This document shows positions 1 through 50,600 of a stretch of 64,000 nt of DNA, piece by piece (positions within the stretch are counted from its first letter, which is position 1; each line of letters begins with the position of its first letter). The stretch is taken from assembly GCF_026914265.1 (NCBI RefSeq), contig NC_069136.1, positions 2,024,501-2,088,500 on the forward strand. Reading direction: 5' to 3'. The position numbers and the translations under genes were made by a program. A model generated the notes under the pieces. That model saw nothing but the letters and a program-made list of their open reading frames with translations. It did no database searches and was not told the origin of the DNA. This DNA comes from Mya arenaria. Its lineage: Eukaryota; Mollusca; Bivalvia; Myida; Myidae.

Positions 1-1535
1 GGTTGGATGGGAAGTATATAGCGACTACCTACATGACGGACGGAGGGTTGGATGGGCAGTATATAGCGACTACCTACATGACGGACAGAGGGTTGGATGG
101 GCAGTATATAGCGACTACCTACAAGACGGACAGAGGGTTGGATGGGAAGTATATAGCGACTACCTACATGACGGACGGAGGGTTGGATGGGAAGTATATA
201 GCGACTACCTACATGACGGACAGAGGGTTGGATGGGAAGTATATAGCGACTACCTACATGACGGGCGGTGGGTTGGATGGGCAGTATATAGCGACTACCT
301 ACATGACGGGCGGAGGGTTGGATGGGAAGTATATAGCGACTACCTACAAGACGGGCGGAGGGTTGGATGGGCAGTATATAGCGACTACCTACAAGACGGG
401 CGGAGGGTTGGATGGGCAGTATATAGCGACTACCTACAAGACGGACAGAGGGTTGGATGGGAAGTATATAGCGACTACCTACAAGACGGACAGAGGGTTG
501 GATGGGAAGTATATAGCGACTACCTACATGACGGACGGAGGGTTGGATGGAAAGTATATAGCGACTACCTACAAGACGGACGGAGGGTTGGATGGAAAGT
601 ATATAGCGAATACCTACATGACGGACGGAGGGTTGGATGGGAAGTATATAGCGACTACCTACATGACGGACGGAGGGTTGGATGGGAAGTATATAGCGAC
701 TACCTACAAGACGGACGGAGGGTTGGATGGGAAGTATATAGCGACTACCTACATGACGGACGGAGGGTTGGATGGGAAGTATATAGCGACTACCTACAAG
801 ACGGACGGAGGGTTGGATGGGAAGTATTTAGCGACTACCTACATGACGGACAGAGGGTTGGATGGGAAGTATATAGCGACTACCTACATGACGGACGGAG
901 GGTTGGATGGGCAGTATATAGCGACTACCTACATGACGGACAGAGGGTTGGATGGGCAGTATATAGCGACTACCTACAAGACGGACGGAGGGTTGGATGG
1001 GAAGTATATAGCGACTATCTACATGACGGACGGAGGGTTGGATGGGAAGTATATAGCGACTACCTACATGACGGACAGAGGGTTGGATGGGAAGTATATA
1101 GCGACTACCTACATGACGGACGGTGTGTTGGATGGGCAGTATATAGCGACTACCTACATGACGGGCGGAGGGTTGGATGGGAAGTATATAGCGACTACCT
1201 ACAAGACGGGCGGAGGGTTGGATGGGCAGTATATAGCGACTACCTACAAGACGGGCGGAGGGTTGGATGGGCAGTATATAGCGACTACCTACATGACGGA
1301 CGGAGGGTTGGATGGGCAGTATATAGCGACTACCTACATGACGGACGGAGGGTTGGATGGGCAGTATATAGCGACTACCTACATGACGGACGGAGGGTTG
1401 GATGGGCAGTATATAGCGACTACCTACATGACGGACGGAGGGTTGGATGGGCAGTATATAGCGACTACCTACATGACGGACGGAGGGTTGGATGGGCAGT
1501 ATATAGCGACTACCTACACGACGGGTGGTATTTGA
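1..1535 (+). repeat. 45-bp minisatellite, about 34 copies, resembling a carbonic anhydrase exon
   Basis: About 34 head-to-tail copies of a 45-bp unit, cut by the window's left edge. Because 45 is a multiple of three, one frame stays open for 510 codons and reads a 15-residue repeat, MTDGGLDGKYIATTY. A second frame is also free of stops. Common variants between units are M/K, K/Q, D/G and G/R, nearly all amino-acid changing; a silent change (ggg/gga before aag) is rare. The peptide resembles MTGGGLTGQYNALQL in the CA exon at 1,879-2,036, in the same frame, and the DNA aligns with exon bases about 1,920-1,963. The array lies just upstream of that exon, in the position of an intron. I read it as non-coding DNA seeded from the exon, though translation as an insert is not excluded. 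Confidence 0.95.
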
Positions 1536-1720
1536 CTTTTCAATATGAAGCGATCACTTTACCTTCATCACGGATGCAGGGCTCCCTGGATAGTACATAA
1601 CGACTGCCTACAAATAAAGGTCAGAGGTATTACTGCAAAGTATATTGCAACCACCTACATGACGAGCAGAAATTTAACTGTACAGTAGAACGCCTAAGCA
1701 GGTATAAAAAATTGCCGAAC
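1536..1720 (+). repeat. Decayed copies of the 45-bp minisatellite
   Basis: Past the regular array, at least three degenerate copies can be followed (around 1,571-1,612, 1,618-1,664 and 1,665-1,710). Parts of them are closer to the CA exon than the main array is: ctccctggatagtac and aactgtacagtagaacgcc against exon ctcactggacagtataacgcc. They therefore look like intermediates between exon and minisatellite. At about 1,757-1,782 a further stretch resembles the exon's opening bases. Confidence 0.75.
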
Positions 1721-1878
1721 CAAATGATGTATACGTTCATTTCTTTTTTAAGTTTAAATGAGCATTATCGAGGCTAACGTCTGGCAACTTGTAACTGAAT
1801 CAACGGTTTAAGGCACTGTCGCTAAATTAGCTGTGAGGCCCTTATATTTGCCCCATATACATACCTTTTTGTACACAG

Positions 1879-4670
1879 TTCAAATGAGCATCAGCGATGC
1901 TGAAATTGGAAACATCCACATGACAGGCGGAGGGCTCACTGGACAGTATAACGCCCTACAGCTTCATTTCCACTGGGGACCCAATGACGACGAGGGCTCA
2001 GAACACACCTTCCGGGGGCATCAGTTTCCCTTAGAGGTAGTAACTTACGTAAAAGTAAAGTACGTATGTAAGTCATTACGTAAAGATCTATATAAGTATT
2101 TTCTTGTACAGCCGTCCAAGTACGCCTGGACATCGAATATATTTGTTATTGTAAATGATACCACGACATTCTTGTCGAGATTGTTTCAAATATTTGAATT
2201 TGTCCGAGGTGTCAGGATTTTTTTGATGTTAGTTATTTCTAATTTTCTTATATGAAAAAAACATGTTTTATGTGTTCGTAGTGGTTTGTGTTTTAAGCTA
2301 TACGTATCAATTGTTTACTTCTATTTAAAATTAAAGGATATACTGTCGTAAGTTACAAGTAATCAGCGATGCTGAAATTGGTTGCTAACCACAAAATGCC
2401 GAAACGTCGAATTAAAGTATGACATTCATTAGATCAAGACTATCCTTTGCAGGGTGCATAGTAAAAAAATCCAAATAGAAACGAAACAGTCTCATGGCTG
2501 ACATTAAGCCACACTTGAATTTTAAAAGATTGGAGAGGACCTTTGGCAACAGTTTTTGCTACTTTAATATATCAATATACATCTGTTTTTGTAATATTAT
2601 CAAGTTAAGGCTGTGTTAAATCTTACTTTGAAGTAATAGTGCATATTTAAAGATCAGTAACGTAAATGAAAAAATAACCGAGTCATAAAGCCACCACTAG
2701 GCATTCTCAAAAGAGTAGTTCATGTGAAAATACATATATCAGGAAGTCAACAGTACGCAGAAGCTCGCATCATGGCATAAGTGGATCGAAGCTTTATTAA
2801 ATCGTTTTATGTAACGCAGGAATCGGGAAGAAACAAAAACATTATATTCGTGGGGGAGCGTAGTTACACACCCGTATATCGAGGGGTGAAAGCGAAAAGG
2901 TTCTATCTTCTCATTTATTTAATGTCACTTAGAACCTTTTCGCATTCACCACTCGATATGAGATTATGCGTAATGTTTTGTTTTTTACACATTACAGATG
3001 CACATTGTGCATATGAAAGATGGGGTAGCAGATCTCCCTACTGCCCTCAAACAGTCTGATGGGCTGGCGGTGCTCGGATTCTTCTTCGCGGTATATTCTT
3101 GTTATTTCACAGTTTGTCAACTGATGTGTTTCGGTGGTACATTATGTTGTTTTCTCTGAAGAGATCGATAAAGGACCAATATTAATATAAAACAAATATT
3201 GATAAAGGACCCATGTTATATAATCGAGCACGTCTTCCAGCAAGTGCTTTGATTGTTACTCCATTATTGGGCAGGCAACCACCACAATCGGTCACGTCCT
3301 TCAGCAATTATCACTGATGGTGCTAATGATTTAGGCGTTATTACAACCACCACAATCAGTGACGTGCTCTAGTAAATATCACTGTCCGTCAGTGTTAATG
3401 TAATTGGGGTAATTATAACCACAACAATCGGCCAAGTCCTACAGAAATCATCACTGATTATGCAAATGCTTAAAGGGTTATTACTCAAACCATGATAGGT
3501 CGCATCTTATAATATTTTATTGTTATAAAGGTTATTTATACCACCACAATCGGTCATGCCATACAGTATGGTAAATTAAAAGGGGTTATTTCTCCCCTTA
3601 CAATCGGTTACGTCCTACAGCAACCATCACTAATAATGCAAATGCTACAGATGTTATTACTATCACCACACTCGGTCATGTCGAACACATGATTGCGAAA
3701 CAGTGGCTCCAGCTCTTTTAGGAGCTGTGTATAAAAAAAGAGCAAATGACACTTCCGACTTAGAGCCAAAAAACGGATATCATTATAAAATGTTAGTATG
3801 ACTCGTTTTTTTATCTAATATCACAATTATGAGAGCTTATTTGAGAAATCGGGGAATGCAGTGCCATAAAAATATGTTTAATCTTCACACGTATTTCGGT
3901 TATTTTGTAAACATTTTTGTTTATGGAGTTATAAAACCGATTCTCCCATCAACCACATGCATGTTTACAAAAGAAAGTAGAACATTTTCACCATTTTCAG
4001 CTGAATCTCACTCAAGAAGCTTACATTTAAGATAAAAACAGTATTATCGAGTGCTTTTATTTTGTCGGGAATTAAAATGACCGCCTGTTTACCGGAGCCA
4101 CTGTTTCGCACCCATGGAACAGTAATCATCACTGATTGTGTTAATCATATAGGGATCATTACTCCCACAACAATCGGACACGGGCTTTAATAACCATCAC
4201 TAATAAGTTAATAACGGTTAAATGTCTGAATAAATTGCAAATTTTATTTGCAAGATTTCTTCGTATTAAGCCAAAATGAGTTAATTACAATAAAAAATCG
4301 AAACAAAAAGATCCATTGGCATTCTTGTTTTGTAGATATTATATATATATGTCAATAATTTTACCATTCGGTAAACAAACCTAGCACCCGTTTCAAGTAG
4401 TAATGGTAATACAAATACAGATATCTTATAAAGTAATTTCATAAAGCACACACTAGCAATTCACGGCATTCAAATATATTTGGAAATAAAAAAGGAAATA
4501 TACACTGTACATGTACATGTATAAGCGTTTTGTTGCTTCAATGGTTTTTATTGAATGATGGTTGTATAACTTTGTGTTCACAGATAGATGACCACGACCA
4601 AGACAACTCCGCCATTGCCCCACTGATCACAAAACTAGCGGACATTCCATACAACGGTACGGGAAAGAAT

Positions 4671-11404: not shown

Positions 11405-14400
11405 ACGTTCCTGATGACTACACCTGGGGATATCATGGCTATGAAGGTACTGTCTAAGCTTCAAGAGTGGACGGGGGTTGCAAATCGAAGGATCGATATA
11501 AGCGCCATATTTATAGCAAATGCATTTATGTTCAACTTCGTGTTTACTTTAATTGGTCTGAACCTTTTTACAACATCTAATCCATCTTCCTGGCATGAAT
11601 CTGATTATTTTCAAAGCAGAAACTCCAATTTCGACCTTGGAAAATATCTATAGAATTGTATGAAATCAAATACAGAAAAGCGCATTTCTGGGTATTTGTT
11701 TGTTGTGGGCTTATGCATGTAAGATAAAGAAATATAAACTACAACAACATTTTACAATTCTTACCAACTTTTACAACCTACGTTATACTGTAGCTGTATT
11801 TCTATCCCATCAGGAGCAGACACGTGGGGCTTGTACTACCCTGACTGCGCCCTAAAAAGGCAATCACCCATCGATCTCCCAAGCCCAATCAATATGACCT
11901 TTGACACCAGCCTACAGCTTGATACACTGATGTTTAACAACTACGAGGTGGACTTTACCGGGAAGATACATAACAACGGGCACTCTGGTAGGTACTGTCT
12001 TTCATAACAACAGACCCTCTGGTAGGAAATGTTTTCCATAACGTCGGTCACTCTGGAAGGTAATATTTTCCATAATAACGGGCACTCTGGTAGGTAGGTA
12101 TTAAACGACAACATCCCTCTGGTAAAAATATGTTTTCCATAACAGCGGACACAGTGGTAGGTAATGTTTTCCATAACAATGGGCACACTGGTAAGTAATA
12201 TTTTTCAGCTGTTACACAAATAACAATTGCCAACATTTTCTTAGTTCCATCAGTCTAGAAATAATTGCAATATCAATATAATGTTTGAGTAAAAAGAATC
12301 TTTCTATCTAAACACTTCTAAAGCCAGACTTTGACAGATCAAGAACTACGTATTCAGACTTTTTGTTCTTCAATGTTTAATGACAGCGCATATTTCCTAC
12401 TTCCTAATTTAAGTATACCCACACTCTAGAGCCCAATCATTCGTTTGAGCAACACATTGCGAGAGTTTCAGATGCTGATCATGATATGTGTATTATCCAG
12501 TGCAAGTAGACATCCCTTCCTCTGCCGACCTTCATCTGACTGGCGGCAATCTAGGTTCCACATACAAAGCGGTGCAGCTACACTGGCATTGGGGCGCGGA
12601 CGATACCACCGGCTCCGAGCACACATATCAATCAAAACACTACCCTCTTGAGGTAGGCTAGATTCTATGTAAATATTGCCCTGTAAAACAATATCTCATT
12701 TCTTTGCGAACAAAACAGATTGGAGTTCATTTCGAAGTAGGGAATATACAATAAAAATACCCTTTGATACCAGCTACGTGTGACCCATTCCGTTATTTTC
12801 CACACCCAGTTGCCGCCCTATCGGTTACCGAGATGGTTTAATATTTTGAGGTAAAAAAACCCACAGCAAGTTTGCTTATACCATTGTCCTGACATAAAAT
12901 GTTTCCGGATATCACTCACATGTATTGCAACAGTTCTCAAATATGATACACCATACTTGCTACATAAGTTGCGAGCAGTATTTTCACCACAAGATCGACT
13001 ACGGATACTTTTGAATGTTTATCAACATTGTACCAAATATTACTACCATAGATGCTTGCCATATATTTCAGCTTCACATTGTCCACTACAATACTGCCTA
13101 TCGGAGCCTTGCCAGCGCCGTTTCGCAGTCAGACGGTCTTGCTGTCGTAGCCTTCTTCTACAAGGTAATATATTGTACATTGTTATGTTTCATTGTCCAT
13201 GATATTCTCGAGGTATTACATTGGTCATGGTTAAGGTCCGCTGCCGTAGTCTTCTTCTGCCAAGTATAACATTAAACATGGCTAAATTCCGCTATCGTAG
13301 ATATCTTCTCAGGGTATAGCATTGATTATTGCAAAGGTCCGCTGTCGTAGATATCTTCTTAAGGTATAACATTGATTATTGCAAAGGTGCGCTGTCGTAG
13401 ATATTTTCTCAAGGTATTACATTGATCATGGTTAAGGTCCGCTGTCGTAGGTTGTGTTGCATAAAGTAAAGGTCCGCCATTGTAGGGTTTTCTTCCAGGT
13501 ATAACATTAAACATTGTTAGGTACTTTAACCAGGTATTACCTTAAACTCGATGAAGGGCAAAGGCTATGAGGTCTAACAATGCACATGGCGAATGGCCGT
13601 TACGGTTCGCTCTTCTATTATGTATATCATTAAACATGGTTACGGTACTCTGTCCAAAGTAACGAGGGCTTACGTTCAACCGGATAAAGGTCCGTCATGG
13701 AAGACTTTTTCTACCAGGTAAACATGTCACATGACTAAGGCTCTCTCTTAAGGTTGTGAGGTCTTACATTGTGACTTAAACATCGATTACATTTTGATTA
13801 CCAGCCATAATATATTAAAAGTAGTCGATTCCAGTTTATAGATTAAATTTCTCATAACATTGATACTGTTTAATGATCATTACTACAATATCTCGCACAG
13901 TATCGACAACATGCCATATCGCATAAGTCATTACGGATTTACGGCCCATAGCTTGTCGAATTTGACAATGTCCACTCTCTAGATCTTTGAACACGCAATT
14001 TTTAAAGGCAACTTTAGTATGACAAAATTCTGATACAACGAAACCACTAATCGTGCAAAAGATTTGAGTTCTAGTTTGAGTTTCAACTGAACTGCTATTT
14101 TGTATAACTTTTGTATGCTAGTAATATTATATCAATCCTGAAATATTTCTAAATCATTTGTTGAGCCTTTGTTTACATAAACCGCTGTCCACCAGATTGT
14201 TTGTGTTAATTTTATTTTACTATCCATGACAGCTCCTTTGATATTTTGACAAGTGAATTTCATAATTGTCAATCAAAATTGTTGCAGAAATTAAATATAC
14301 GCATTCGGATCTTCCAGCATGTAACACTATTTGGGTTGGGTACCGTTAAACATTTAACGGCCATCGTTGAATAATCACACAAGTTTTACAATATATTACA

Positions 14401-19015: not shown

Positions 19016-19421
19016 GTGAGTTGTTGAAAAAAGTTCAAATAATTATGGCTTAAGTAAGTTGGATCACTTATGTATATTTTCATGTGATATAAATGAAGCG
19101 CTTATATTGCTAAACTGCAAAAATTGCAAACCCTAGCCCCACCATTGAAGCAGTAACAGTACGCTCATAGCTATGATACCCCAAGCTGTAATCATTTGGA
19201 TTGTCTGAAATAATCAAGAACATCATATAAAGAAAATTCAATGGAATAAATACATTTTTTTCTGTTTCCTATATTTACAACTTACTGCATTTTATCATTT
19301 CAAATTGTTTAAAAATGAATTTATAGTTTTCCTGTATGTACCTAATACTTTTGATAAAATATAATTAAAATCTACTTGCCACAACTCTTGAACTGAAATG
19401 TGTACTTTAACCGTACAAAAT

Positions 19422-19730
19422 GTTATTGCTACACTGCAATACTTCCATGTTGCCTTGACTCTCGAGTTTACTCTCGTTCCCCGCCCACTTTTTCACTATG
19501 GGAGACACTTAACTTTATACAGTGTTATTGCTACTCTGCAATACTTCCATGCTGCATTGACTCTCCAGTTGACTCTCATTCCCCGCCCACTTTTTCACTG
19601 TGGAAGACCCTTAACTGTATACAGTGTTATTGCTACACTGCAATATCTCCATCCTCGCTTGACTCTCCAGTTGACTCTCGTTCAGTGTCTGTTGTGAACT
19701 TTACCATTGTGCTTTGTGCTCTTAACTCAC
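19422..19730 (+). repeat. 102-bp tandem repeat, three copies
   Basis: Three units start gttattgctac at 19,422, 19,524 and 19,626, with shared blocks caatacttccatg, ttgactctc and ccccgcccactttttcact; the third is truncated. It lies about 0.4 kb upstream of the first C1q gene. Confidence 0.9.
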
Positions 19731-20097
19731 ACTTTCAATCTCTTGTAGGATATAAAGGATTCGAGGCAAATATTCGAGCATACCAGAAATGTCAACAATG
19801 TTTTAAATATCATTAAAACCTAACATCACCATAATAAAAACTTAATGAATATGGGATTTTGTCGAACAAGCAAATATGTAACTTTTTTGAAAGCTTAAGA
19901 TCAGGATTTTAAAGACTATAATTCAAACATGCTAATATGATGTTGCTGTATACTTGTTATCACATTTTGTTTATATCTATGTCAGTACAGTGAAGTATAA
20001 GCACTCTTAATTAGGGCCAAATATCTTATTACGATAAGAGAACTAGTCCATGCACAGCTTGGTCATCCTTGATAAATTACACACTCGTGAACTAATT

Positions 20098-21229
20098 ATG
20101 AAGTCAATAGGACTGATTCTTTCTCTAATAGTTGGCATATTGTGTGCACAAGTATTTGCTGAGGACACTACTTCATTAAAATATGACATTTCTGCTCTAC
20201 AAAGCGCTATGGGCCGTGTTCTCAAACGTCTGGATGACAGGGACACCCAGATTAATTCCCTTAAAGATGACGTGGAACGTCTAACATTGCTTCTCGCCGA
20301 CCAAGACGCAACAATAAGTGAACAGAACTCCCGGATTCAACATCTCGAGGGAATAATTCGCAGTAAGAGCGACGAAAATCATAATACGTCAGACGCGATT
20401 TCTGGACAGGGGCACGTGTTATCGTCAGGATCAGCTGGCAAGTCAGCTCCTGCCCGCAAGGCAGCGTATTACAACGGTATAATTACACTTGCAGATTTCG
20501 AAATGGCGGTTTATATTTAAATACAGTATCCAGATTATTCCAAATCAAAATATACCTTTCGTGTTGCTCCTTATATGAACGGATGTATTCTGTCGTCTGT
20601 AAAAAAGCAAAGGCTTCCATTATTAAGCTTAATACTTGTACTTTATATTTGTCTATAGTATCGCCCTTAAAAGAAAGATATGCGGCATTCACTGGGTAAA
20701 CTTGCACTGAATTTAAACATCGTACACAAACTGCGTGTTACAATATAAATTGTAAACAAGTGTTATTTGTTTGATAGCTTACAACAGGATGCGCCGGGAG
20801 TACATGGGAAGCCCCGTCGCTTTCCTAGCCACGTTAGCGAATTCCATCACGCACGCTGGAGCACTTCAGCCAATCGCCTTTGATCGTGTCGTTACGAACG
20901 TAGGCGGTGCTTACAACGTACATCTGGGATCGTTCGTCGCCCCGGTTTCCGGTATCTACGTGTTTTCTACCACCTTACTTAGTTATCCAGGTCATACGAC
21001 ACACTTCCGATTTGTCAAGAACAATCAGGCCGTCAGTCACTTGTATCTGAAAACTTCGCCAGGTCAATACGAAACAGTGTCGCAGACAGTTGTTCTCCAG
21101 CTCAACAAAGGCGATGATGTCACGATCAGAAACGAAGACCCAGATGAAGCATTGCATGGCGACAACTACAGTACCTTCGCTGGCTTTCTTATCTGGGAAA
21201 CAGAAAACACCCCGGCAATCGTTGGGTAA
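20098..21229 (+). CDS. C1q-domain-containing protein, copy 1
   Basis: Two exons, 20098-20476 and 20778-21229, encode 276 residues. The ATG at 20,098 was chosen over an in-frame ATG at 20,050 because it places a clean signal peptide at the N-terminus (MKSIGLILSLIVGILCAQVFA, cleavage before ED). Residues about 27-95 form a heptad-rich coiled coil (LQSAMGRVLKRLDDRDTQIN and on). A Ser/Gly/Ala linker follows. Exon 2 is a C1q head: VAFLATL, GSFVAPVSGIYVFSTTLL, NKGDDVTIRNEDPDEAL and STFAGFLIWETE. There is no collagen repeat, as is common in bivalve secreted C1q proteins; trimers held by the coiled coil are likely, with roles in recognition inferred only from the family. It is the first gene of a tandem pair. 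AATAAA follows at 21,249. Confidence 0.95.
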
Positions 21230-26278: not shown

Positions 26279-27255
26279 ATGATGTCGAAAGGACTGTTTT
26301 TTTCTATACTATTTGGCCTATTGTGTGCTGAAGTATTTGCTGAGGACATTTCCTCTTTTAAAGATGAAATATCTGCTCTACAAAGCGCTATGGGCATCGT
26401 TCTCGGACGTCTGGACGACAGAGACACCCAGATTAACTCGCTAAGAGATGATGTGGAACGTCTAACATTGTTTCTCGCCGACCAAGACGCAACAATAAGT
26501 GAACAAAACTCCCGGATTCAATCTCTCGAGGAAATAATTCGCAGTAAGAGCGACGAAAATCATACTACGTCAGATGCGACTTCTCGAGAGGAGCACGCGC
26601 AATATTCAGGACCATCTAGCGGGTCAGCTCCTGCCCGCAAGGCAGCGTATGACAACGGTATAAGTACACTTGTAGTTTCGAAATGGCGGTTTATATTTAC
26701 ATACTGCGCTAAATACAGTATACAGATTATTCCAAATTAAGATACTAGTATACATTTCGTGTTACAGTATATAAATTGTAAACAAGTGTTTTTTGTTTGA
26801 TAGCTTACAACAGGATGCGCCGAGAGTACGTGGGAAGCCCCGTCGCTTTCCTAGCCACGTTAACGAATCACATCACACACGCTGGAGCACTTCAGCCAAT
26901 CGTCTTCGACCGAGTCGTTTCGAACGTAGGCGGTGCTTACAACGTACATCTGGGATCGTTCGTCGCCCCGGTTTCCGGTATCTACGTGTTTTCCACCACC
27001 TTACTTAGCTACCCAGGTCACACGAGTCACTTCCAATTTGTAAAGAACAATGATTTCGTCAGTCGACTGTTTCTGCACACTTCGTCAGGTCAATACGAAA
27101 CAGTGTCGCAGACAGTTGTTCTCCAGCTGAACAAAGGCGACGATGTAACGATCAGAAACCAAGACCCAGATGAAGCTATTCATGGCAGCAACTACAGTAC
27201 TTTCGCAGGCTTTCTTATCTGGGAAACAGAAAACATCCCGGCAATTGTTGGATAA
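26279..27255 (+). CDS. C1q-domain-containing protein, copy 2
   Basis: Two exons, 26279-26657 and 26804-27255, give exactly the same exon lengths (379 and 452 bp) and protein length (276) as copy 1. Signal peptide MMSKGLFFSILFGLLCAEVFA; coiled coil with the same register (LQSAMGIVLGRLDDRDTQIN); C1q head with FVAPVSGIYVFSTTLLSYPG and FAGFLIWETENIPAIVG at the end. The intron is 146 bp against 301 bp in copy 1. Differences cluster on the head surface, for example KNNDFVSRLFLHTSSGQ against KNNQAVSHLYLKTSPGQ. An upstream in-frame ATG at 26,237 is less likely because it would precede the signal peptide. Intact. Confidence 0.95.
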
Positions 27256-41600: not shown

Positions 41601-44600
41601 TAGGAACGCTTTCTGAATGGTCAACTGTACTTTTTGGGGTCGTTTTGAAGTATACGCTTCTGCAGCTTGAAATCAGTCAGTTTTCTCCCAGCTCAAGCTT
41701 TTGAGAATTTTTTTCAAAGAAGCTAAAAACGTACATGCTGTTATTGGCTTTCAATGTGAGGGTTTGTTGACCGAGTTTATGGCAGTCTGCTTCTGGTTAA
41801 AGTCTGAGAGTCTCCTTTGCCCTTGCTTAAGCAACTATAACATTTGACAACTAATAAAAACTTATTATCGGATGTGGTTGTTTTTTACTTTATGATATAC
41901 GGTTGAACGGCAGAGTGGATGGATGAGTGTGAGATTGCTACAGGCCTTAAATTGTTGCGAGAGTGCTTCAAGTGTTTGTGCAATTATGACCGATTATATA
42001 ACGTACAAATATTATTAGCAGTAAACACACATATCCGGCTTGGTGACTAACCACACCGGAAATCGAATTAAGAATGCCTTGGTTAAAAGATATTTCCCCA
42101 ACCACTGCGCTTACCGGACACACTTTTGTCAAAACAAATATGAGCTCATGCCTTTTTCAGAAATATGGCATATTACAATGGGATAAGTTGGCCAACGGGT
42201 ATGGTCTAGCAGTAGATACTCATGCTAAACAAGTGGTTGTAAGTGATCCAGGCAACAAGTTTCTGGGGATATTTGACCCCAATAGTAATTTTGGAACAGT
42301 CTTCTACGTTGGAACATCAAAAGGTACAATGTACAAAATGAGGTGATTTAAGTAGTTTTTGTATAAGATATCACCTACTACTCAAGCTAATATATTAATA
42401 ATATTGTACCTTATATTGGATTTAAACAAATAGCCCATATCATGTCAACAACAAAAACAACAAAAACCAGCAGCAACATCGAAAACAACTAAATACATAC
42501 ATACAGTAGTTACATAAATCGAACATGTGCTAATATTTATGATCAAACTATGGGCTCTATTACAAGAATGTTAAGCACGTTTAAGACCTTTCTATAACAA
42601 ATTCCATACCCCTCTGCTAATAAACTGAAATGCCTTTCTTTTGTTTTTCAACCTCTTGCAATGTGTCACTGTACGGATTTATTTTGTAGGAGTAGGCCAA
42701 GTGACGATAGACTGGCGTGCGCGTAACGTATACTGGGCAGACGGCGGATACGGCTGGATAGCTATGAAGCCGCTCCCTAAAAACATTTCTAGACACAACG
42801 GACTCGATACCAGGATGAAAGTTGTCGTTGACCAACAGCTCGACACTCCGACAGGGATTGTTGTCCACCCACATGCCTAGTGAGTCTGAAAATACACAAG
42901 TTTTTATGCATTAAAAACATTTGGTATTATAATTTCGCCATAACTATGGAGCTGACTATTTCTAATTTAAACGAACTAATGTAATTAATTAAACCATTGT
43001 GTAAATGGTAATAAATGCAAACAACATCAGTAGCATATGTTGTGATGTTCAAATCTTAGTTGACCGCAGACTCACCCGTCACGTGTTAAAGCCCATTGGT
43101 GAAATAGTCTAGTGGTTAAGGTGTCCGCCTCTCACTCAACAGGTTGAGAGTTAGATCCCCACAAAGGGTACTTTGTGATTGCCTCTAAAAAGGGCTATAA
43201 GTACTGGTATACCCGGAAAAAGAACTCGAGGGGGATTTATATCAGCCTTCAGCTGTCTTTTCAATTGAGCTAAAATAAATTTGTATTAACTAAATGTTAT
43301 TTTAAGTTATCTTATTGTGGGTGACGTTTGCCAATGGCGATCAGACATTGTTCACGCTTATTTGTTGTGGTCCTTTGGTTTCTTGCATTTTAACGAAGCT
43401 TGTCTGCTGGTACGCGGATTGTCTGTCAGGAACTGTATCTTCTTATAAGTTACATATATCAACGATATGTTGACCAGGCAGACAGTTTATGGATAATGGT
43501 TTCATGATCCGTTCTGGACGGATGAAGCACAGCTATGCAATTGAATGCGTTGAAAAATACATGGTATGTATTTACTCCTTTTCAGCTATCTGTTTTGGGC
43601 CGACGCCGGTAAGCGGCCAAAAATTGAGAGGTCAGATTTGACCGGAAATAAAAGGAGAGTAATTATTTGGCAGAGCCTTATAACCCCACGGGCACTTGCC
43701 ATCCACCAGCATGATAATGGTGACAAACTCTTCTGGACGGATGAGGACAGGGGGACCATCGAGTTTTGTAACCTTGACGGCACTGGGAGGAATATATTAA
43801 TTTCGGTTAATTCACTTCGCTTCTTTGGTCTAGATATTTTCAAGGTGAGGTTAAATTATGATAAAGAGTATCATTTAATTATATTGAGACCTATACGTTG
43901 TATTATATACAGGACATAGCACGAGTTGTCGTTTAATAAGGACTCTATTAAATTGATAATGATAATAAGGAACGATGTAAAACTACTGCATTACGTATGT
44001 CCGAACAAATCGTCATATAATCGCTGTATAAACTGGAATATGAATAAAACATACAAGTCTAAAAATGGTGAAAGCCGATACACAGAAGCCAACGGGCCCG
44101 ACATATTATGAGGCGGACACTTTCCCACTTCAACTAACGATAGATGATGGTTTTATTAAATTATTATTCAATGGTTACGATTCACAACCACAAGGGAGTT
44201 TACCTAGCGCGTTAAATACGATTCGGAATTGATCATAGACATAATAATTACAGAAAATAACATGATACTTACTTCTAAATATACACAAAATCAAGATAAA
44301 ACAGAATTATTATGCATAAAAAATGTCAATCATAAACTGAAGATACACGTTTTGAGTTTTCTCTTGAAGACGATTCAAATCAAAAGGAGAAAACACATGA
44401 ATGAAATTGTACTTAAATGTAAATCGTCCATCCTTATACATCAGAAATTGATTCTTATAAAGTGTTTTCTCAAATATTTTGTTTTTCAATCCGATACTTG
44501 TGGTTTATTTTTCCGCATTAGATCGTGAAAGTTCGCACGTTTCCGTCAATATATCGGAAAGGAAATAACGTTCGTTTTGTCAGAACAGCGGTCTTATCAA

Positions 44601-47600
44601 AACTATATTATGACTTTATTTCATAATAGCGACGTCATTTGTGAAATAAATTTTTTCCAGTTCCTTTTTATTACGTTCTTTTTCACAGGGGTTTGTCTTC
44701 TATACAGCCTACACAAAAGATCCAAGTTTAAACTTTACTGGATACATCCAGATAGAAAACACGGACAAACAGTCTTTCAGGAAATACGACAAACGATGGT
44801 TCCACTTGTCGGTGTATGACAAAGCATCCCAGCCCCGTGATGAATCGGGTGGAAGTTGCGAAAGCTCATTTATTAATTGTAGCCAAATTTGTACACACGA
44901 AGATGATGTTGGACACCATGCATGTCTATGTTTAGATGGATACCAGCTTGACAATATCCGGGGAAAACTATGTTCAGGTACGCTCTCATCAGCCAATTGC
45001 ATAAGACTTTCTTAAGTTGTCCTTACGTTATCCTTAGGTTAGTTTTTGCATTTCAATGATTTGATTGGTCAATTTTTGGATAAATATTGGCCAATCAATA
45101 CTTAAAAAAAACATGAAATCCTACAATAAACACATATTGCCTTGACTTGACAGTGTAACATACACATTTGGTTTCAATCATCAGGCAGAATCATACAGAC
45201 ATTTCGTTTTAACAGTTCTGTGAGTGTATTTTGGAATTCATCAAGTTCATTCAACTACTATTTAAATATGTTTTTTTTTAAATGTAGAAATGTTATATAC
45301 GATATTTTATGTTACTGTTTTACATTTCTTTCAGTTATCGTGGTATATCTGTATATCATGTGGATTCAAATTATTAAGCGTTTGTTCGTGTCATGGTTAG
45401 AACGGTACTTAAATGCATAAGATATGTTTAAGGAAAGTATGCGCTTAACCTTTTTTGCAGACAGGGGATATAACGTCGAGAGGCACATGCTGTTTACTAA
45501 CTCTCACTCTATTTGCGCTATCGCCATCAACGCTTTCAACGTTCACAACACATCTTCCTCTTACAACTGCAGTGTTGTCAAGGATTCGCACGGAAATATT
45601 ACCAGGTTATTGGTGGGGAAATACTTATTGAAAGAACTTTATTAGCGGAGCCATAATAAGTTATCTTGTCATTGGCTGCAATGTTAAATGTTGATTGTAA
45701 CACAATGCGGTCTTGCGTATGCACGTGATCATAATCTTAGGGAATTACCTAGGCAACGAGGGTAGCTAGGTGAGATCACGTGGATAAGACGTAGTTTAAA
45801 TATTGAGGTGAGCGCCGATCGCCCGTAGCTCCGAGAGTCTGGTTCTTGCTTCTAAGCTAGGAAGTAGTATTGTTTTTTTATCTCGAGCTAGAGATTCGTA
45901 GTTATTCCACAGATATTTGATGACTTGTAAATACAATGAAGAACTTTAAGGACTTGTTTTAAACATAAGGTGACACTGGACAATTGTGTCACATTGATGC
46001 CTGGTGAACCGATATAATGTTGATACCATTTGAAAGGTTATTGCTTGCTTTTTACTAATAGGCAAAATCATCGACAGAAAATTCACCATAAACCAAGTCA
46101 TCGCAGTTAAATTTTTGTTCTATATTTCAACTGAAACTGGATGTGAAGTGTTCGATTTTGCAATATTTCAAAGCCAAAAAGCTTGTTTGTAATATGTTTG
46201 TTGTACATTTGTACATGGTCTTTCCCTACACATGCAGCCCAAACAAATGATACGAAAATAGTAGAGGGTTACCAGGCATAAAACATCGCACTTCTGTATA
46301 TCGGATACCTTTAGGAGTACAGTGTACCGACTAAATTGAAGATAAAACTGAGTGAAAGTAAAAGGTAGTCGTTGTAAACAATACGCATTTCACATTGTAT
46401 GTCCAGTTTGTCTGTCGTTATATAAAGCAGTTATAACGGCTGACAATGATAGCGTTAAACGTTTGAGAAACGACACATTGTATTGCAAATAAAGCTTTTA
46501 TGAGAATGATTTAGATGCATACATGTATTTTAGATCCTCTCTTGGTTTATATAACGGCTGACAATGTTATCTTAAACGTTTGTGAACTGACATATTGTAT
46601 TGCAAATATAGCTCCTTTTAGCTTAGACTTTCGAATTTAGTATATCTTTTATAAGAATGATTTAGATGCATACTTGTATTCAGATTTTCTCTTGATATGA
46701 CGGGAAGAAAAATATTCTTCTCGAACGGTACACATATTTTCGAGCAAACCCCATTCCACAATGATTTTCGCATCGTTCACTCGACTGACGAATCAAGAAC
46801 GGTAACAGGTAATAAGTATTTGATATTAGGATGTCAGCTCATACAATATATTGGTAGTATGCAGGATATGTGAATATAAGTAATAGTTAGAAAACGTGAA
46901 ATAAAATCTTAATGATTACGAAAGGGCGGTGTGAGCTCATTGGGAATACAACCTCTGTTATTTTTATAAGACGATATTTTAACGACAATAACATTTTGAA
47001 TTCGTTGATTCCATTTAATAATACCCTTCTAACATACATATACAATACTTTGTTTCCAGATATGGACTTTGACTGGATATCACACCGCTTGTATTGGATT
47101 GAAAGTAGTTCCGGCACATTACATTCGATACTGCCTTACGAAAGTAGCGCGGCCGTTACATTGAAGACCCTTTCAAGTGATCGGATAATTACAAATCTAG
47201 CTGTTGACCCTCATAAAAGGTTAGTATTTTTTATATATTAACTATAAACGTACGGGCTAATAGGCAATACGCCTTATATCTTATATTCTTACATATTGAT
47301 AAATGTTGGGAAAAGTATGAGGTTGGTTACACAAGGTTTCGCTGACCGTTCGAAGGTAGAGGTATATTGATTCGTGTGCGGTCGATCAATGCTGTTCCGT
47401 ACGCGGTGTCTCGCTCGTTCAAAGGTACAGGTATTTTTATTCGTGTGCGGTCGATCAATGCTGTTCCGTACGCTGTGTCTCGCTCGTTCGAAGGTACAGG
47501 TATTTTGATTCGTGTGCGGTCCATCAATGCTCTTCCCTACGTTGTGTCTCGCTCGTTAAATGAATGTTAGGCATTGTGCCTAAAGATATTTGGCTACTGG

Positions 47601-50600
47601 ACTGTTAGCTTGTAGTATTGTAGGTTATATTTTAATTATAATTTCGATAAGTATCAGCAGTTTTTTCAGAATGAACAAAAACGAGCAAAACAAAATAATT
47701 GTCTACAATTAAGTTACGTGTTTGTACAATGGCTTATATAATGATCATTGTTGAATATATATTTTAACATATACGAGAAATATCAGTCCCTTCTACCGAT
47801 AATAAACGTCGAGTGTCTGGATTGCCACTCAAGAGTGACCACCAGAATTTAACACGGATTCTACTCCCTACAGCGGCGACTGTTTTGCTCTTTTTATTTG
47901 CTGTTTATTTCTAAGATTAATTTCTCACACGAATACTAGGTCGTTTTCTATTTTGTGTTTTATTTATAAAGTATAGGACCGACAAATATTGTATTCTAAT
48001 TTCCAGGAACATTTATTTCGTTACGAGAGGGACTACTGGGCAATACTCATTAAACTTATACGATGTAGCAAATGAGGTCGTCAGTCAAGTTAAAGCTAGC
48101 AATTTACAAATGCCAACTGATCTTGAATACGACCGGCTGCAAGAAAGGTAAACTTCCGAAAATGCGTGCGTGTGTGCGTGCGTGCGTGCGTGCGTGCGTG
48201 TGTGTGTGTGCGATAGTAGTTTGATATGTAATATTTCTTTATTTAAATATTTTGAATTACAGGCGCGAACATTTTAGCAACTATATATATATATAACATT
48301 TTGATTTTATATCAAAACTACTACGAAGATATCATCGACAAAACAAGAATTACATATGAATAAGAATCAAGCATAACATATACATTCGATGTATTCTTAC
48401 TATCCCTGTGAAACATTTGGAGAGTTGAATGATTTGGGGTTAATTATGTAGAGATCAAATTGAACATTACAGATTAGTTTGGAACGATAATGGCGGTTTT
48501 ATTGGATTTCTGACACTGGGTGATAAACAAAAGATCTCATTTAAGGAATCGGCTGGAAACAAAAGAAGGCATGCGGTTACTACTTACAAGGTATTATTTT
48601 TATAATATTTTTTATATATTTAAGATTGGTTTTGAAATGAAAGATATAAATATCAGAGATGATTATTCTAGTATCAATAGTTTTATTTCGTAACGTTGTA
48701 TATATTCCTTATTTTAAAAAGCATTCTCATTGCGAATAAATCTGCATGTCTTTCGATACAGATATTTGCGTTAACATAGTAACGTGCAGGGGCTTAGAGC
48801 TTTTGTCGTATGAGGTAACCTCACGTTTGCTCAAAAAGAAGAATGTAGCGCGCAAACGTCACTCATGTAGGGTAACTAATTGACATGAACTTTTATACGT
48901 CCAAATAATGTCAATAGGAATCTTGCTTAACAAATACTTCAGCAGAGTACTCCGAATGCTGAATGCTGAAATAACATGGACCCTGGAAACATATTTAATT
49001 TAATAGTCAAAATGTCTCAAAACCTTAGGTCGTCCGTGGAGTATTGAAATAGCAAATAATAACATTTAACATGTTTATTCAAGTTCAAACATCATCAATA
49101 ATTTATATCATAAATTATTCCTTAATTTAATAAAATAATTCGAAAGAATCGAATGAAATATAGGGGAATAATTCAAAGGATAAAATATCATGAATTGAAT
49201 TAAAATGTCAACGAGGTAAGCAAAGTTAAAGTACATGTACATTAAGGACAAAGGGCACTACAATATGGTATTCACTGGGTGTTCCTTCAATTTAAAGGAA
49301 GACCATAACTCGACCGTAATACTGTATATGGTAACTGGCAACCATTAGCCACCAATATCATATCTTCTCAAAGCAATGTGATCCAAACATTCAAATCACA
49401 TGTTGAGTAAAGTTAGCACTATGCTATTTTTGCATTTTCCATTTGTTGTGTTCTTTCAGAAGTTTGTAATTTCTTCCACCGAAGAAGAGGACCGCCATAT
49501 CGACGTGTTATATGAAGGCGACAACTCAATTATCTACTTGTCATTTAAAAAGAGTTATCACCCTTTCGTCCATGATATGCATGTGTATGATACCACTTTA
49601 CAACCTTCTGAGACAGGTTATTTACCTATTTATACGGTAACATACAAAACATGTAGTTCTTGCCATTATATAAAGCCCTTTGAATTGTAGTTTGCGAAAA
49701 GTTCGTTGCATTATTGAACACCATAAATCATATTTTTTTAAAAATATTTTTGTATTGCATGCAGAATGATAATTATTTACTCCTACAGGTCCGTGTGATG
49801 TTAATAATGGTGGATGCGAACACTTCTGCCTTCCCCATTCAACCAAAGAGTGTGCTTGCAAGCTGGGATACACGTTGTCTTACGGAAAAAAATGCATAAC
49901 AAGCACATTGAAATCAGATTTTTTTATAATACTTGACCAAGTTCATGGCAGACTCTACCAGGCAAATAATGACGCAACCCACCTTTCTGACGTTGTCGCT
50001 CTTGAGATCAACGAGAACAATACTCCGGCAGCCCTTGCGTTTGACAGCAACACCAATACAATAGCATGGGTGGACAATTCTGATGTTTCAAAGACGGTGA
50101 GGACAATGACTATTGGTGACACGGAGGAAAGGAATTTGGATGTTCGTAAGTATTTGCTTGTGTCCTTTAAAGAGAATTAAATATAGAAAATTGTTTCTCA
50201 AATGTTCAAACTCCAGGGAAAGGCGTTGACAAAACAGGGTAAGTCGATTCGGGATGTTTGATGTACATACATTTTGAAAGTAAGCAGATTCTGTTTGATT
50301 GGAACTGTACATTGGCAGAAATGAAAAGTGCAACGTTGTTAACACCCACTGGTACTAACTTCAGCAGAACTCTATTTACAAAAATCATTAAACAACATTC
50401 AATCCCCCCGAAAGTTCCAAAGAGAAGCTTCTCCAGCGGGAGAATATGGTGCAGTGGCAGTTACGAGCATTACTGATTTGACTAAAACGTATTCTTACGT
50501 TTGTTTTAATGAGAATCATGACTGTGACTACCAGAGCATTAGCATGGTAGATTGTAAATTTAAATGTTTGTGATCAAATAACTATACTAATTCAATGATA

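Follow-up and report, generated by a model that had tools for sequence, protein, structure and literature searches.

The window analysed here, a stretch of 64,000 nucleotides from the bivalve Mya arenaria (C15:2024501-2088500), opens within the intron between exons A and B of a carbonic anhydrase (CA) gene, G1. It belongs to an assembly of 1.216 Gb in 18 contigs, in which the genome searches reported below were made; one of these contigs, C18 (17,947 bp), carries COX1. G1 is identified as an alpha-carbonic anhydrase gene by its PF00194 match and by the zinc-ligand histidine motifs HFHWG (exon B) and HIVH (exon C), and a three-exon query that includes exon B aligns to human CA XII. A CA search of the genome returned 127 exon matches. 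The cluster on C15 holds genes of two types: type I comprises G1, G5 and a third gene, and type II includes G2, the neighbour of G1, as well as G4 and G6. Exon A of G1 is at C15:2020883; exon C of G1 is absent among the matches of the genome search and was recognized by eye. Features of the two genes within the window are listed in Table 1.

Table 1. Exons, arrays and decayed exon copies of CA genes G1 and G2, in window positions
Feature	Position	Strand	Basis
45-bp array, distal part, intron A-B of G1	1..1524	+	TRF
Decayed array unit	1566..1605	+	nhmmer E=3e-5
Last copy at the 3' edge of the array	1643..1694	+	nhmmer E=1e-3
Decayed copy of 3' splice site and 5' part of exon B (G1)	1730..1827	+	nhmmer E=1.5e-3; z=6.9
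Exon B of alpha-carbonic anhydrase gene G1, unit source ~1918-1963	1879..2036	+	PF00194 1.1e-13; splice sites read
Exact 20-bp piece of exon B, following intron	2362..2381	+	genome pattern search
Exon C of G1	2998..3090	+	read by eye: acceptor TTACAG, MHIVHMKDG.., donor GTATAT; aligns to CA XII
Exon A of type II CA gene G2	11814..11987	+	PF00194 match; sequence
34-bp array of G2, unit = last 19 bp of exon A + 5' splice site	11969..12204	+	TRF; z=10.7
Exon C of G2	13072..13164	+	PF00194 match; sequence
50-bp array of G2, unit = 3' end of exon C + 5' splice site	13205..13450	+	TRF; z=5.7

Elsewhere in the window, a 139-codon open frame (19397-19816) runs over a 102-bp (34-codon) tandem repeat, 5' of a C1q-domain frame, and has no Pfam match. 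Two C1q-domain frames (20756-21229 and 26782-27255) each follow a frame of 157-168 codons with only sub-threshold Pfam matches. In the region 43554-50180, one frame is of LDL-receptor class B type and another has weak EGF-like matches; together they are possibly an LRP-type gene. Among the CA exon matches outside C15, some on C4 have identical scores and lie 3.6-4.4 Mb apart (68.3/72.7 and 73.7/77.3 Mb), and near-identical matches on C3 lie 2.2 Mb apart (53.5/55.7 Mb); C4 also has a 5.19-kb triplication. These repeated matches are either recent segmental duplications or unpurged haplotypes.

Intron A-B of G1 is occupied by a 45-bp minisatellite, of which the window holds 33.9 copies with 96% matches. 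A reading made from the sequence alone (hereafter, the sequence-only reading) had reported this array at the start of the window, where it is real but only part of a far longer structure. On the 5' side it reaches beyond the window, with a distal part that begins at C15:2023687 and an older part at about C15:2021246-2023214, the start being about 3.3 kb ahead of the window; a profile search gave 98 unit matches in the intron in all. Across the G1 region there are 99 unit matches, all on the same strand, and some of the G1 units are 32 bp in length. The intron of the third type I gene contains 18 matches to the 45-bp unit. On the minus strand, a 241-codon open frame lies antisense to the array (828-1553) and probably arises simply because the unit has no stop in that frame.

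In the genome searches the unit is restricted to this cluster. With up to 3 mismatches allowed, the core pattern matched 65 times in 1.216 Gb, always within the two arrays or in exon B of G1 and G5, and the reversed pattern matched nowhere in the genome under the same limit; a pattern search of viral contigs gave 0 matches. The whole-genome search found the 45-bp array in two genes only, G1 and the third gene. Looking for the unit at other loci, as the sequence-only reading had advised, thus yielded nothing outside the CA cluster, and a dispersed genomic satellite was rejected.

Within the cluster, the unit resembles exon B, which has the TTTTTGTACACAG acceptor before it and GTAGTA after it. 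Alignment with exon B scored far above dinucleotide shuffles, with z=5.5 for the unit in the window, 7.9 for that of the older upstream array and 14.5 for that of the third gene's array, and 0 of 300 shuffles scored as high for each of the three units. When aligned with six further cluster exons, these units reached a z of at most 3.8, and the match is limited to exon B among the seven exons tested. The translations of unit and exon are identical at 9 of 15 residues in one reading frame, which bears out the in-frame similarity first noticed by eye, and the first unit at the 5' edge of the array agrees with exon B at 29 of 33 positions. Over 326 kb of CA loci, an HMM of the unit found, beyond array units and their decayed pieces, exon B in three genes: G1 (6.2e-7), G5 (2.9e-5) and one CA gene on C4 (0.029). 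When both strands of the merged CA loci were scanned with an HMM of the acceptor and exon B, 120 matches had E<=1; 97 are inside the array limits on the strand of the gene, and the remaining 23 comprise copies of CA exon B, array units that are decayed or at the edge, dead exon copies in G5 (2.3e-4 and 9.6e-3) and G1 (1.5e-3), and a 20-bp piece of the exon.

The core of the array is homogenised, and the copies at its edges are decayed and more exon-like. The decayed intermediates that the sequence-only reading had described at 1571-1710 were recovered as two copies (Table 1). The tail of the copy at the 3' edge scores 18.0 and 18.5 against exon B of G1 and G5, respectively, compared with 9.0, 10.5 and 16.0 against the three array cores, and this copy has AAGCAGG in common with one of the dead exon copies in G5 (copy 1). 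A further copy, at 1730-1827, had been missed in that inventory; it includes the 3' splice site as well as the 5' part of exon B, and its reverse strand gives z=-0.3. The array lies, as first supposed, in the intron that adjoins its likely source. The 20-bp match on the other side of the exon also held: it is exact, sharp-ended and 472 bp away in the other intron, and at up to 1 mismatch the genome search found 2 matches, this piece and exon B itself.

By exon B, the closest match of G1 is G5 (89% protein identity). The corresponding intron of G5 has no 45-bp array and carries two decayed copies of the 3' splice site plus about the first 100 bp of exon B. Copy 1 scores z=10.1 over dinucleotide shuffles, and copy 2 scores z=5.7 with the G5 exon and 9.1 with the G1 exon; the dead copies in G5 and G1 have scores of 22.0-27.5, compared with 19.5 for the best of 1293 control tiles. 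Chance resemblance between unit and exon was rejected on these control tiles, the shuffle z values, the HMM matches and the genome pattern counts. In a MAFFT alignment of the three type I introns, G5 dead copy 1 falls onto the first array unit of both G1 and the third gene. This position and the exon-like copies at the 3' edge suggest that the array lies within a dead exon copy. What is left of the exon 5' of the first unit, in G1 as in the third gene, is so decayed that it does not reach significance alone (z of -0.2 to 1.9).

We regard G5 as the likely pre-array state. It is conceivable that G5 lost an array instead of never having one, because its intron is nearer to that of the third gene (alignment score of 91, compared with 61 and 48 for the other pairs) and exon A, with 161-162 identities in each comparison, does not separate the three sister genes. 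The exon-like tail that follows the unit in G5 speaks weakly against such a loss. The third gene is incomplete: exon A at C15:1963506 is followed by the 45-bp array and then by an N run (L010), and its exon B, which was not found in the assembly, may be inside that run.

Arrays derived from exons recur at exon edges elsewhere in the CA family, on three chromosomes. The 34-bp array of G2 starts within exon A and has 7.0 copies; its counterparts in G4 and G6 have 22.6 and 15.4 copies. The same three genes share an array of 50 or 51 bp built from the end of exon C and its donor. In three C9 genes, a 55-bp array that repeats the donor begins within exon A, and the paralogues differ in copy number in this one assembly (42.9, 29.5 and 22.9, with about one extra copy in a fourth gene). 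An 83-bp array on C8 is built from the acceptor end of exon C with at least 41 bp of that exon; 38 of 44 positions match in the copy nearest to the exon, and the units have AC in place of the acceptor AG. On C3, just 5' of exon A, there is a single unamplified and decayed copy that comprises the acceptor with about 80 bp of this exon. In whole-genome DNA searches, the matches listed for the 34-bp and 55-bp arrays all lay within the respective gene group, and the match counts are lower bounds; the two arrays, which involve the same exon edge in different gene groups, could share an origin. Four of the five unit types (34, 51, 55 and 83 bp) include the splice-site region, and these units, like the dead copies of acceptor and exon, span an exon-intron boundary, whereas the 45-bp unit does not. 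Other arrays at these loci, with units of 68 bp (3276-3484; L012 3306-3766), 102 bp (19407-19683), 69 bp (47347-47557) and 55 bp (L012 762-1787), gave z<3 against the seven CA exons and, to that extent, do not appear to derive from exons. The 68-bp array is common to G1 and G5, 3' of exon B.

We consider it highly probable that the 45-bp array records repeated tandem duplication in the immediate vicinity of exon B, which would have occurred in two steps. Before G1, G5 and the third gene diverged, a segment made up of the 3' splice site and roughly 100 bp from the start of exon B would have undergone at least two tandem duplications into the 5' intron; purifying selection would have retained the copy adjoining the rest of the exon, leaving the others to die. 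Within dead copy 1, an internal segment of 45-46 bp would then have been duplicated and amplified by slippage or unequal exchange, which would account for the 98 unit matches of G1 and the 18 or more of the third gene, while G5 stayed free of an array. The array cores would have become homogenised and the edge copies would have kept exon-like letters. We infer this mechanism, the order of events and their neutrality from a single assembly. The real exon appears to have kept both splice sites intact, which makes it most likely that the array is neutral intron filler under neutral turnover; the tandem splice sites could act as decoys.

That the repeat came first and the exon took up its sequence is extremely improbable. 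The shared segment would be identical whichever came first, and array and exon are in one frame; however, exon B is a standard alpha-CA exon by its CA XII alignment, its PF00194 score and its relatives on several chromosomes that have no core-pattern array (its protein has 18 matches in its own genome, itself included, whereas the array was found in only two genes), and the intron copies carry a splice acceptor. With G5 having the exon and dead copies but no array, the direction from exon to repeat, which had been conjectured at the outset, is supported. A coding role was also weighed. In nacrein-like shell proteins a repeat domain lies inside the CA domain, and the array could by analogy encode 15-residue repeats that enter the CA protein as a spliced cassette: the unit amounts to 15 codons, the distal array is open for 742 codons in one frame and the proximal array is fully open in two forward frames. 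Any stop-free 45-mer, however, gives an open array, and the stop in the CA frame of 16 of the 18 units in the third gene, the 32-bp units in G1 and the fact that no pyrimidine-rich acceptor was seen by eye at the array edges make a coding cassette very unlikely.

Placement of the exon copies by template switching or templated end-joining, in place of slippage or unequal exchange, is a rather unlikely course overall. The exact, sharp-ended 20-bp piece in the other intron resembles a templated insertion, but the array copies run head-to-tail on one strand and in several genes adjoin the exon edge without a gap, as from tandem duplication. There is an even chance that exons are not special at all, and that local duplication is rampant with exon seeds simply staying readable under selection, a situation compatible with origin from the exon. 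The examined loci contain 61 arrays of period >=18. We compared 77 CA exons in these loci (of the 127 matches) with 400 random windows outside arrays, looking for local copies within 6 kb; the counts are drawn from CA genes in a single assembly. Same-strand local copies of any kind were found for 11 of 77 exons and 76 of 400 windows, so exons are not enriched, and opposite-strand copies for 1 of 77 and 26 of 400 (the one exon, on C12, has a 27-bp match and is also among the 11). In a first control, with windows permitted in arrays, 136 of 400 had same-strand and 33 of 400 opposite-strand copies. Against this, a copy inside an array was found for 9 of 77 exons but only 7 of 400 windows (p=2e-4, a value that is too strong because the exons are partly paralogous and represent about five seedings), and most unit types contain a splice-site region. 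Seed preservation could yield both the excess of array seeds and their splice-site content.

Ordinary intronic VNTRs are tandem arrays with a homogenised core and a copy number that differs between paralogues. The clam array is like them in these traits and unlike them in that its founder has been identified as the neighbouring exon. It is rare for the founder of a minisatellite to be known. In the clam, selection still acts on the seed as part of the exon, and what appear to be earlier stages survive in paralogues. If duplication from exon edges is the correct reading, the CA family would present successive grades, namely a single dead copy, dead exons in tandem, and arrays with a nested unit or with tens of tandem 5' splice sites, and would offer a natural series for testing how exon duplication leads to intron lengthening and new splice sites.

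The closest known systems are the mirages of lancelets, which are described as minisatellite-like tandem duplications of 5' or 3' intron/exon boundaries; they lie in the intron next to the true exon, have units of about 10-160 bp and have cluster edges that escape homogenisation (PMC3087553). The genes in which they are described there include Adh3, the globins Gb6 and Gb9, troponin C and PGBD5 (PMC3087553; PMC3902484). The clam arrays are similar in having tandem same-strand copies in the intron by the exon, a homogenised core and divergent edges, and by sequence those of 34, 51, 55 and 83 bp agree with the description of mirages. What sets the clam arrays apart is the bivalve host, a different gene family in which seeding occurred several times, an array with 98 unit matches and the presence of stages among paralogues. 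The 45-bp unit departs further from mirages in that it is wholly internal to the exon, lacks a splice junction and appears to lie within a dead exon copy that is itself mirage-like. The sequence-only reading had held that exon-seeded arrays are rarely described. The phenomenon is known in kind from lancelets and recurs within the clam CA family; no report of mirages outside lancelets surfaced in the CC-licensed literature searched, which is weak evidence of absence. A potato RdRp gene reportedly gained an intron by tandem genomic duplication (PMC4974935); it is like the clam genes in having a tandem duplication within a gene, but in the clam an existing intron was filled and no new intron is shown. 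Compared with lancelet mirages, the recurrence, the visible stages and the exon-internal unit are new, as, probably, is the molluscan host. Whether introns of animals other than lancelets grow recurrently by mirage-type amplification of exon edges, which would then be no oddity, is close to evenly balanced, with the odds leaning slightly against. If it is general, tandem duplication of splice sites would be tied to intron growth and possibly to intron gain, and the carbonic anhydrase genes of the clam would serve as a test case outside lancelets.
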